Part shown: piece by piece, positions 3,200 through 41,649 of the stretch
How the letters are laid out: each line of letters opens with the position of its first letter
Position numbering within the stretch: position 1 is the stretch's first letter
Source of the DNA: Phenylobacterium sp.
GTDB taxonomy: Bacteria > Pseudomonadota > Alphaproteobacteria > Caulobacterales > Caulobacteraceae
Direction: 5' to 3'
Length of the DNA stretch: 64,000 nt
Assembly: GCA_018001015.1 (NCBI GenBank)
Contig: JAGNIV010000014.1
Location: forward strand, 25,356 to 89,355
Position numbers and translations under genes: made by a program
The notes under the pieces: model-generated
What the model was told of the DNA's origin: nothing
The model's input: only the letters and a program-made list of their open reading frames with translations
Database searches by the model: none

Positions 3200-3853
3200 A
3201 TGACCGACGATCACGCCAAACCCTGGGAAACCACCCGGCGCGGCCTGCTGCTGCTGGTGTCGAGCCCGGCCGGGGCGGGGAAGACCTCGCTGTCGCGGCG
3301 GCTGGTGGCCGATCACGGCGACATGACCCTGTCGATCTCGGCGACCACGCGGGATGCGCGGCCCGGCGAAGAGGAGGGGCGGGAGTATTTCTTCGTCGAC
3401 CGCGCGCGGTTCGAGACGATGATCGGCGAGGGGCACTTCCTGGAGTGGGCCGAGGTGAACGGCAACCTCTACGGCACCCCCAAGGCGCCGGTGATGGCCG
3501 CCCTGGAAGAGGGCAAGGACGTGCTGTTCGACATCGACTGGCAGGGCGCCAAGCAGATCGCCGAGGCCGCGCCGGATGACAGCGTGCGGGTGTTCATCCT
3601 GCCGCCCTCCTGGGAGGACCTGTCGCGGCGCCTGCATGCCCGCGCCCAGGACAGCGAGACGGTGATCCAGCAGCGCCTGGAGCTGGGCAAGGACGAGATC
3701 GCCCACTGGGGCGCCTATGACTATGTGATCGTGAACAAGAACTTCGACCGGGCCTATGCCGACCTGATCCACATCTACCGCGCCGAGCGGCTGAAGCCGG
3801 GGCGGAACATCTGGTTGCCGGAGTTTGTGGTGGGGTTGTTGAACGAGGGGTAG
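3200..3853 (+). CDS. gmk: Guanylate kinase
   Basis: Phosphorylates GMP to GDP with ATP, a step in GTP and dGTP supply and in recycling of cyclic GMP and (p)ppGpp. The 217-residue protein shows the P-loop SSPAGAGKTS (residues 21-30), the GMP-binding segment TRDARPGEEEGREYFFV and the DIDWQGAKQ motif, in family order. The stop codon is followed directly by repeat-derived DNA. Confidence 0.97.
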   Translation: MTDDHAKPWETTRRGLLLLVSSPAGAGKTSLSRRLVADHGDMTLSISATTRDARPGEEEGREYFFVDRARFETMIGEGHFLEWAEVNGNLYGTPKAPVMAALEEGKDVLFDIDWQGAKQIAEAAPDDSVRVFILPPSWEDLSRRLHARAQDSETVIQQRLELGKDEIAHWGAYDYVIVNKNFDRAYADLIHIYRAERLKPGRNIWLPEFVVGLLNEG

Positions 3854-3910: not shown

Positions 3911-4017
3911 GATCCAGGTAAAGCCCACTTTGCTGTCAGATGGATCGCCGCCTGATGGTGGGTCAAACCCAGGCGCCGGAGATGAATCTGGGTCCCGGCC
4001 TTCGCCGGGATGAGCGG
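3911..4017. repeat. Class A BIME-like repeat, copy 1 (left end missing)
   Basis: Matches the repeat at 4527-4656 almost base for base from GATCCAGGT to GATGAGCGG but lacks the left-hand hairpin. It sits in the 366-bp gap between gmk and the GIY-YIG gene, which contains two repeat copies and no credible protein gene. Bases 3854-3910 show nothing recognisable. Confidence 0.8.
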
Positions 4018-4042
4018 ATATTGGGATGGCGCCGGGTTTCCT

Positions 4043-4199
4043 CCGCTCCTCCCGGCGAAGGCCGGGATCCAGGTGAAGCCCACTATGTCCTCAGATGAAC
4101 CGCCAGCCCTTTGCGGAGCAAACCCAGGCGCCGTAGGTGAATCTGGGTCCCGGCCTTGGCTGCTTCGCGCCGCCCCTTCGGGGTCGCCGGGACGAGCGG
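4043..4199. repeat. Class A BIME-like repeat, copy 2
   Basis: Ends are CCGCTCCTCCCGGCGAAGG and its inverted counterpart ending GACGAGCGG. Each end folds on itself (CCCGGC-GAAG-GCCGGG), so the element is two opposed hairpins. The right end carries about 24 extra bases (CTTCGCGCCGCCCCTTCGG) relative to other copies. It ends 21 bp from the stop codon of the GIY-YIG gene. Confidence 0.85.
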
Positions 4200-4219: not shown

Positions 4220-4516
4220 TCAGAATGGCAGCAGGTTGTTGAGGTCGTCACCCAGGTCTCGCCAGTCCGGGTTCTTCTCCTCGATCAGCCGAAGCTTCCA
4301 GGCACGGCGCCATTCCTTGATCTGGCGCTCGCGGCGGAAGGCGTTCTCGCGCAGTTCGAAGGCCTGGAACCAGACCAGCCTGTCGACGCCGTAGTTGGCG
4401 GTGAAGCCGCGGCGCACCTTCTCGCGATGTTCGAAGACCCGCTTGGCGAGGTTGTCCGTCGAGCCGGTGTAGAGCGTGCCGTTCCGCTGGCTGGCGAGGA
4501 TGTAGGTATAGAACAT
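4220..4516 (-). CDS. GIY-YIG family nuclease-like protein, single domain, flanked by class A repeats
   Basis: 98 residues that form just one GIY-YIG domain of the small YhbQ/UPF0213-like type. The first strand YTYILAS (3-9) stands for GIY and LYTGST (15-20) for YIG; the expected catalytic Arg is R26 in AKRVFEH with H30 after it, and the metal-binding Glu is probably E57 in RENAFRRE. The tail KEWRRAWKLRLIEEKNPDW is typical of the subfamily. I chose the ATG at 4516: an upstream in-frame extension to 4567 only translates repeat DNA. Class A repeats lie on both sides (4043-4199 and 4527-4656), the right one 10 bp from the start codon. Family members are predicted DNA nucleases; the substrate is unknown. 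See finding on the repeat association. Confidence 0.85.
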   Translation of the reverse strand: MFYTYILASQRNGTLYTGSTDNLAKRVFEHREKVRRGFTANYGVDRLVWFQAFELRENAFRRERQIKEWRRAWKLRLIEEKNPDWRDLGDDLNNLLPF

Positions 4517-4526
4517 GTCCCTCCCT

Positions 4527-4656
4527 CCGCTCGTCCCGGCGAAGGCCGGGATCCAGGTGAAACCCACTTAGCTGTCAGATGGATCGCCGCCTGATCGTGG
4601 GTCAAACCCAGGCGCCGGAGATGAATCTGGGTCCCGGCCTTCGCCGGGACGAGCGG
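4527..4656. repeat. Class A BIME-like repeat, copy 3
   Basis: The most complete copy. Left end CCGCTCGTCCCGGCGAAGG and right end CTTCGCCGGGACGAGCGG are inverted copies of about 27 bp, each self-complementary (CCCGGC-GAAG-GCCGGG). The core carries a further weak inversion, AACCCAC/GTGGGT. It directly precedes the GIY-YIG start codon, so its 5' untranslated RNA would fold strongly. Confidence 0.88.
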
Positions 4657-4682
4657 GTTTGGGGTTTTGCTCCCGGCTCAAT

Positions 4683-4708
4683 GTTCTTCATATGTTCTTG
4701 CATGGTTC
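4683..4708. promoter_or_regulatory. Tandem LexA-type SOS operator: three GTTC half-sites at exact 11-bp spacing
   Basis: GTTC occurs at 4683-4686, 4694-4697 and 4705-4708, separated by exactly 7 bp each time, giving two overlapping GTTC-N7-GTTC sites. This direct repeat is the known LexA box of alphaproteobacteria; the first site, GTTCTTCATATGTTC, is close to the common GTTCTCTATATGTTC form. It sits in a locally AT-richer stretch, 90 bp before the terminase-like gene and 167 bp before the divergent GIY-YIG gene, so it could control either or both. Confidence 0.7.
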
Positions 4709-4797
4709 GCGCATTTATGGCAAGAGATGGCCATTGGTCAGGGCTGCGCGCGGCGCGTCCTCAAGGCCGTTGATCCCAATCAATTCAGGATATTGCC

Positions 4798-5583
4798 ATG
4801 AGCCGGAAGCGGGTCTGGGGCGAGGTCGCCCCGGTGGTGGACGAGGTGTGCCTGCGGCTGGAGGCGGGAGAGCCGCTGGCCGTGGTATGCCGGGAGGCGG
4901 AGATGCCTCATGAGAGCACGCTGCGGGCCTGGCTGCGGCGGCATCCGGACCTGAAGGCCCGCGTGGACGCGGCGCGGGCGGCGGGGCTGGCGGTGCAGGC
5001 GGCGCGGCCCTTGGTGGGACGGGTGCGGCCGGTGGTGTTCGACGAGGCCCTGGCGAACGCGGTGTGCGAGCGGCTCGCGGCGGGGTCGCAGGGTCTGGAG
5101 GCGGTGTGCGCCGACCGCGACCTGCCGTCGTCGGCGACGGTCTATCGCTGGCTGGCGGACTATCCGGAGTTCGCGGCGCAGTACGGGGAGGCGCGCCGCA
5201 TCCAGGCGCACCGGATGTTCGACGAGGCCCGCGCCATCGCCAAGGCGGCCACGGCCAAGTCGGTGGCGGTGGCCAAGCTGCGGATCGACACCCTGAAATG
5301 GCAGGCGGCCAAGCTGGCGCCGCGGGTCTATGGCGCGCGGGTCGAGCGGGACCTGGAGCCGGAGGCGCCGGTGTTCAATGTGCAGATCCGCGACTTCAGC
5401 CTGGAGAGCGAGGTGGAGGTCCTGCGGAAGATGGTGACGGAGGCCGGGATGAGCCTGCCGGAGGAGTCGGCGATGAACCCGATCCCGCCCCATCTGCCCG
5501 GTCTGAGGCGGGGGGCGGCGGCCAAGGCGATGGCGGCGGCGGCGGCGGAGGACGGACGGGCGGCCGGGTCCGAGTGGCTGTAG
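4798..5583 (+). CDS. Terminase-small-subunit-like DNA-binding protein with duplicated HTH-type segment
   Basis: 261 residues. The segment from about residue 70 to 190 (CERLAAGSQGLEAVC, SSATVYRWLADYPEFAAQY, AKLRIDTLKWQAAKLAPRVYG) matches the small terminase subunit type of Sf6-like phages, which recognises DNA by an HTH domain. A second, diverged HTH unit lies ahead of it (about 12-58: VCLRLEAGEPLAVVC, STLRAWLRRHPDLKARV), so the DNA-reading unit is duplicated. No large terminase subunit or other phage gene is nearby, so it is an orphan: a domesticated phage gene or a regulator. ATG at 4798. A tandem LexA-type operator lies 90 bp upstream, suggesting DNA-damage control. Function beyond DNA binding is not known. 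Confidence 0.75.
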   Translation: MSRKRVWGEVAPVVDEVCLRLEAGEPLAVVCREAEMPHESTLRAWLRRHPDLKARVDAARAAGLAVQAARPLVGRVRPVVFDEALANAVCERLAAGSQGLEAVCADRDLPSSATVYRWLADYPEFAAQYGEARRIQAHRMFDEARAIAKAATAKSVAVAKLRIDTLKWQAAKLAPRVYGARVERDLEPEAPVFNVQIRDFSLESEVEVLRKMVTEAGMSLPEESAMNPIPPHLPGLRRGAAAKAMAAAAAEDGRAAGSEWL

Positions 5584-41541: not shown

Positions 41542-41649
41542 CCGCTCATCCCGGCGAAGGCCGGGACCCAGATTCATCCGCTGAATTCAGGATCCTTGGT
41601 CGAGACCGTGACCTGCGATCTGGATCCCGGCCTTCGCCGGGACGAGCGG
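41542..41649. repeat. Class A BIME-like repeat, copy 4
   Basis: Same terminal hairpins (CCGCTCATCCCGGCGAAGG ... CTTCGCCGGGACGAGCGG) as the copies at 3.9-4.7 kb but with a different core. Separates the dehydrogenase from the CoA-transferase gene, 14 bp after the first and 6 bp before the second, 37 kb from the GIY-YIG gene. Confidence 0.85.

Follow-up and report, generated by a model that had tools for sequence, protein, structure and literature searches.

We found a predicted LexA operator, the direct repeat GTTCN7GTTC at 4683–4697, upstream of a gene whose product resembles the small subunit of a phage terminase, in a stretch of 64,000 nucleotides of Phenylobacterium DNA (hereafter the window). 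Judging from this sequence and its relatives, LexA most probably represses the terminase-like gene and releases it upon DNA damage, a reading to which we assign a probability of about 0.82. By homology, LexA would bind the direct repeat, the 3' half of which abuts the -35 element, so that bound LexA would block RNA polymerase and repress the downstream promoter. Upon DNA damage, RecA would trigger LexA cleavage and the terminase-like gene would be derepressed. LexA operators are well known; the gene behind this one is unusual. The features concerned are listed below, with positions counted from the first letter of the window.

4220–4519, minus strand: GIY-YIG nuclease gene (PF01541, 2.1e-16), divergent from the terminase-like gene and a possible second target of the box.
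4535–4648, no strand assigned: palindromic intergenic repeat located between the nuclease start and the box, with CTGGRTCCCGGCCTTCGCCGGG arms at 4535–4556 (minus) and 4627–4648 (plus).
4683–4697, plus strand: LexA box 1, the predicted conserved operator, GTTCTTCATATGTTC; an exact GTTCN7GTTC with half-sites kept in 4/4 orthologues and differing spacers.
4694–4708, plus strand: overlapping second match, GTTCTTGCATGGTTC, whose 3' half (4705–4708) is the third GTTC.
4698–4726, plus strand: putative promoter for the terminase-like gene, with TTGCAT and CAAGAG separated by 17 nt, picked by eye from the box-TTGAC-N17-TAGGTT or similar arrangement of relatives.
4798–5583, plus strand: gene for a 261-aa terminase-small-subunit-like protein with an N-terminal HTH (about residues 13–66) and a complete Sf6-gp1-like core (about residues 77–190).

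The case for function at this putative operator is that its first pair of half-sites is conserved; the triple does not contribute to it. Orthologues of the 4798–5583 gene occur in three other Phenylobacterium species (84–89% identity) and lie downstream of the same genes as the window copy, these neighbours being kept in four species; the nearest of them, 3200–3853, we take by eye to encode guanylate kinase. The box sits at -113 to -115 before the ATG in all four species (115 bp in the own genome) with fixed half-sites around the spacers TTCATAT, CGTAAAT, TGCAAAT and TCTAAAT. Conservation upstream of homologues, which the earlier note had named as a check of its operator, was thus found for the first pair in 4/4 orthologous promoters of the terminase-like gene. 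In two of these species (G065 and G008) the alignable upstream sequence begins at 4680, 3 bases 5' of the box, and the examined loci contain the box and no nuclease gene at that place. Taken together, the block conserved from 4680 and the missing nuclease indicate that the terminase-like gene is what the box belongs to. The gene itself is under purifying selection; in comparison with each of the three orthologues, dN/dS is 0.32, 0.46 and 0.30. Box 1 ends directly 5' of TTGCAT, at the place where many relatives have TTGAC; a consensus scan of both strands between 4500 and 4830 returned no sigma-70 promoter, the presumed promoter of the window gene fitting the sigma-70 consensus poorly.

The genome encodes LexA: a lexA gene scoring above the cut-off is found at C29 with a GTTCN7GTTC match just upstream, and further boxes precede uvrA, a HhH-GPD glycosylase gene and a gene for an S24 regulator (L067). 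Together with the box in 4/4 orthologues, the matches before lexA and uvrA lend support to the earlier proposal of a LexA operator before the terminase-like gene. The same genome also has a box in front of a LexA-like protein gene below the lexA cut-off (L281) and a LexA-type box before mraZ (L070). Strong LexA boxes were additionally noted before six genes whose products resemble one another at their N-terminal start, in most cases near SVPDP (L266, L268, L259, L277, L272, L270); the four of them that were scanned (L266, L259, L277, L272) gave no Pfam match. In the own genome, strong boxes likewise precede L087, whose product has a DNA/RNA non-specific endonuclease domain, and L088, which encodes a SMI1/KNR4 (SUKH) protein. 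The SVPDP-type genes, L087 and L088 look like SOS-controlled bacteriocin-type genes.

Beyond the four orthologues, the terminase-like family is widespread in the genus, with a protein match to the 4798–5583 gene in 74 of 101 genomes. A profile search of 249 genomes of the bacterial family found a match in at least 54 (at least 44 Phenylobacterium and at least 10 from other genera), these counts being lower bounds as only part of the candidates per genome was scored. We inspected 93 homologues, namely the 92 from the top of the match table and G280 lower down, 90 of them from the genus, over a stretch that begins 450 bp upstream of each match and ends 30 bp inside it. The box was present in gene orientation in 64/93, all from the genus, and in the other orientation in 1/93; the reversed motif occurred in 6/93 on the same strand and 1/93 on the other, and the background elsewhere in the same loci was 0.011 per 480-bp window and strand. 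The 93 homologues are related, so the 64 boxed copies are not independent, and they are spread over most clades of the gene tree. Three of the four family members in G000 have an exact box. Directly 3' of 68 boxes, TTG was found in 54 and TTGAC in 29, and box positions 9–11, within the spacer, are mostly T. The box-TTGAC arrangement is not confined to the family, since a terminase-like member follows in only 7 of 30 loci with GTTCN6TGTTCTTGAC. Among 20 remoter homologues, for which we inspected the sequence between a point 350 bp ahead of the open frame and the match, a box in gene orientation was seen in 8/14 from the genus and 0/6 from other genera (one of these six had a match in the opposite orientation); the other-genus homologues of the main set gave 0/3.

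An exact box within 450 bp is lacking in 29/93 homologues, 8 of which lie beside a large-terminase-like gene. Of the remaining 21, five show a box with one mismatch and TTG after it (L180, L182, L208, L212, L213), in three the box is displaced by an IS1595-type insert (L114, L174/L135, L185), one offers no more than 52 bp upstream (L224), three are from other genera (L228, L234, L249) and nine are without explanation. Copies with a large-terminase-like gene following them were boxed in 1/9 cases, the sole one being L243, versus 63/84 for the other copies (Fisher p = 0.0003), or 63/81 once the three other-genus loci are excluded. Overall, these upstream regions support SOS control of the terminase-like family as a predicted trait.

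The product of the window gene resembles terminase small subunits. The 261-aa protein matches PF20901 at 1e-45 (154.6 bits, cut-off 27), with a second, partial match to the same family over its N-terminal part (1.1e-10), and phrog_1482 terminase small subunit at 5e-45 over residues 75–187. Its predicted structure has a mean pLDDT of 78 and a pTM of 0.45, with helices at 7–69 and 83–173. No nuclease domain was found in the protein by Pfam. In a phage collection, 36 records gave a match, none of them spanning 80% of the protein, and the 15 matches listed of these 36 start at residues 76–78. One relative was seen on a viral contig (L365). A tblastn search of the 3.8 kb around the window gene (L002) with four large-subunit-like proteins of the genus, which we take to be large terminase subunits by sequence motifs and position, found no large subunit; one of these queries was scanned and had no Pfam match, falling in a PHROGs family without known function. 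A true phage terminase is therefore disfavored for the window copy, given that no large subunit was found nearby and that its neighbours are kept in four species. The phage-terminase role is kept as a reading for the 9/93 homologues that lie beside a large-terminase-like gene.

What the protein would do once induced can be read in two ways. One, to which we give somewhat short of even odds, is that of an SOS-induced chromosome-binding or regulatory protein which aids repair or damage-induced death and is not a packaging decoy. Copies that sit on the chromosome and contain at least two HTH modules fit such a role, as does the lack of a large-terminase-like gene beside 84/93 copies within the stretches examined, but the gp1 core is kept, which suggests a terminase-like assembly. 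The other is that of a decoy small subunit, competing with a terminase or misdirecting it; this is a guess and an improbable one. Speculatively, the protein, which combines a gp1-like core for oligomerisation with two HTH modules for DNA binding, would bind DNA while prophages or gene transfer agents are being induced as well.

Regardless of the role of its product, the terminase-like gene may not be the only target of the box. The earlier note had described the site as one operator serving both divergent genes, and its intergenic placement was right: the GTTC words lie within 4520–4797, the single intergenic region between the GIY-YIG gene on the minus strand (ATG at 4519) and the terminase-like gene on the plus strand (ATG at 4798). 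LexA would then repress the nuclease as well, both being SOS genes, which is conceivable and in our view somewhat doubtful. Nuclease and box occur together in the own genome and in G009, where nuclease, box and terminase-like gene are arranged as in the window. Nuclease matches were found in 35 of 60 genus genomes, from which 63 (30 + 33) were examined with shorter fragments left out; removal of two truncated copies (L288, L293) and of the two box-sharing ones (own genome, G009) left 59. Of these other copies, 11/59 (4/26 + 7/33) have GTTCN7GTTC in either orientation within 450 bp (L285, L299, L300, L307, L317, L324, L326, L328, L329, L331, L337), with two of the 33 loci offering less than 450 bp upstream (L312, L319). 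The background density predicts about 1.3, the reversed motif was absent from both sets (0/26 and 0/33), and some of the boxes lie a few bases from the start. The nuclease family itself therefore has SOS links, which makes a shared operator possible. Against it, 48/59 copies of the nuclease lack a box, the palindromic repeat (about 114 bp) separates the box from the nuclease ATG in the window, and the block conserved from 4680 in G065 and G008 keeps the box without a nuclease gene. Further CTGGRTCCCGGCCTTCGCCGGG arms are present in the window at 3988–4072 and 41550–41641.

LexA repression of the terminase-like gene remains the preferred reading, and it concerns box 1 only. The earlier note had described three GTTC words with 7 bp between copies and an 11-bp period, and these are indeed present at 4683, 4694 and 4705. 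Its further step, a three-half-site operator made of two overlapping LexA boxes, fares less well: the first pair is conserved, but the third GTTC, on which the second pair depends, occurs in the own genome only (0/3 other orthologues) and sits in the spacer of the presumed promoter. It follows that the three half-sites are not the conserved unit. One cooperative operator for two LexA dimers is accordingly unlikely. The exact 11-bp period in the own genome would suit it, and the spacer score of the second match (0.3, with only 3 of 66 other boxes of the terminase-like family lower) is compatible with it, because an even lower score (-6.1) was obtained for the match before lexA, which makes the low score weak evidence. 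Box 1 equals the median of those 66 family boxes and also exceeds the match before uvrA (2.2). The triple form, on the other hand, was found once in the own genome, alongside one control match, and 32 times versus 16 control matches across 101 genus genomes (summed columns), and is thus not clearly beyond chance; moreover, about 97% of Caulobacter crescentus SOS promoters have a single box according to the available part of PMC12700426. We conclude that 4683–4697 is well supported as an ordinary-looking LexA operator that was mis-described as a triple, and that the third GTTC is, as far as these comparisons go, incidental.

The earlier statement that the arrangement has a small chance probability likewise stands for the pair and not for the triple, with its near-control counts. 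GTTCN7GTTC occurs 5 times in the window versus 1.07 expected, and 110 times genome-wide (4.0 Mb, 77 contigs) versus 45 for the reversed motif, which indicates that many of these matches are real boxes, though not all. That box 1 itself is a chance match and the terminase-like gene lies outside LexA control is the least probable of the readings considered, for although the same counts mean that a good part of the matches is chance, the box is kept in four orthologues with changed spacers and is associated with the gene family-wide.

Outside the window, LexA boxes of the genus showed a second pattern, an association with IS1595-type elements. We collected 43 distinct elements from the genus that share 37% identity or more with the transposase of L263, collapsing duplicates by hand and leaving out 18 shorter partial matches of similar identity. 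In 27/43, a box lies directly before one end of the element, at exactly 12 bp in 24 and at 13, 14 and 15 bp in one each (L114, L135, L384, L385, L388, L392, L394, L395, L402, L408, L414-L417, L422, L424, L426, L430, L432, L433, L435, L437, L438, L441, L442, L452, L453), and a one-mismatch box is found at 12 bp in three more (L423, L427, L434). The remaining 13/43 have no box; some of them end with their contig, and L418, L420, L421, L425, L431 and L439, with both ends, a 7- or 8-base duplication and no box, are real exceptions. As controls, the motif pointing the opposite way was found before an IS-like end in 2 of the same 43 loci, the reversed motif in 3, and spacers of 6 or 8 in none. The box lies on the transposase-start side in 16 cases and on the other side in 11, so both orientations occur. 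Three of the occupied boxes are part of promoters of terminase-like genes (G017, G030, G067).

We considered whether the elements themselves carry the box and rejected this. Duplications of 8 bases adjoining the element, verified by script for 14/27, lie between box and element and differ in sequence among insertions, indicating that the box is target and not cargo. Because the bases 3' of the box vary, what these sites have in common is not a -35 element. An 8-bp target duplication with its outer edge 4 bp downstream of GTTCN7GTTC would place the end of the element 12 bp from the box in either orientation. Outside the genus, the pattern was seen in 1/30 loci, for which only 1.5-kb flanks were covered, so that a box next to the more distant IS end may have escaped notice. 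Nine distant IS1595-type elements (28–35% identity) have no adjacent box, the end pattern perhaps not fitting them. The boxed elements are not monophyletic in the IS tree, within which support varies. We lean toward the view that LexA operators of Phenylobacterium are landing pads for IS1595-type transposons of several lineages, which lodge in SOS promoters, those of the terminase-like family included. As the elements are not one clade and the pattern is rare in other genera, a host factor, perhaps operator-bound LexA, may guide insertion. The intact box at 4683–4697 would then be one unoccupied site.

Overall, the presence of the same predicted switch on many copies in the genus suggests that the bacterial DNA-damage response has a branch not described so far. 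In the literature searched by title, with most subscription papers falling outside it, we found neither a multicopy SOS-controlled terminase-like DNA-binding family in one bacterial genus nor a LexA operator as a transposon target. If true, these readings would mean that hosts have repurposed a phage packaging protein as a damage-response gene many times, and that the operator of a repressor can serve as a targeting signal for transposons.

The predicted operator agrees with those described for C. crescentus, where SOS promoters have GTTCN7GTTC with the same half-sites and spacing as in the window and usually one box per promoter (PMC12700426, available part). In contrast, PF20901 has no match in the Caulobacter vibrioides control genome, and Bacteroides ihuae was the only one of 14 control genomes to match it. 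BapE of C. crescentus, an SOS-induced endonuclease from the same bacterial family, is comparable by description, and the bapE promoter fragment contains GTTCGCGTTATGTTC, a box of this type (PMC12340889, available part). The window protein differs from it in that no nuclease domain was found, and BapE as a member of the same protein family was a lead only, in view of the unmatched Caulobacter vibrioides control. The available parts of the GTA paper PMC9632790 and the DidA paper PMC4211646 do not mention the terminase-like family. The window protein also resembles gp1, the small terminase subunit of phage Sf6 (3hef, 4dyc): profile positions 77–189 of alignment A2 match residues 6–120 of its 143-residue chain at 5e-34, while the window protein has an extra N-terminal HTH and no large subunit was found near its gene. 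Phage satellites of the SaPI/PICI type also have a terminase small subunit outside a phage that is tied to the SOS response, as predicted for the window gene. Unlike in those satellites, no island was recognised around it, in the course of a non-systematic search, and its neighbouring genes are the same across four species.
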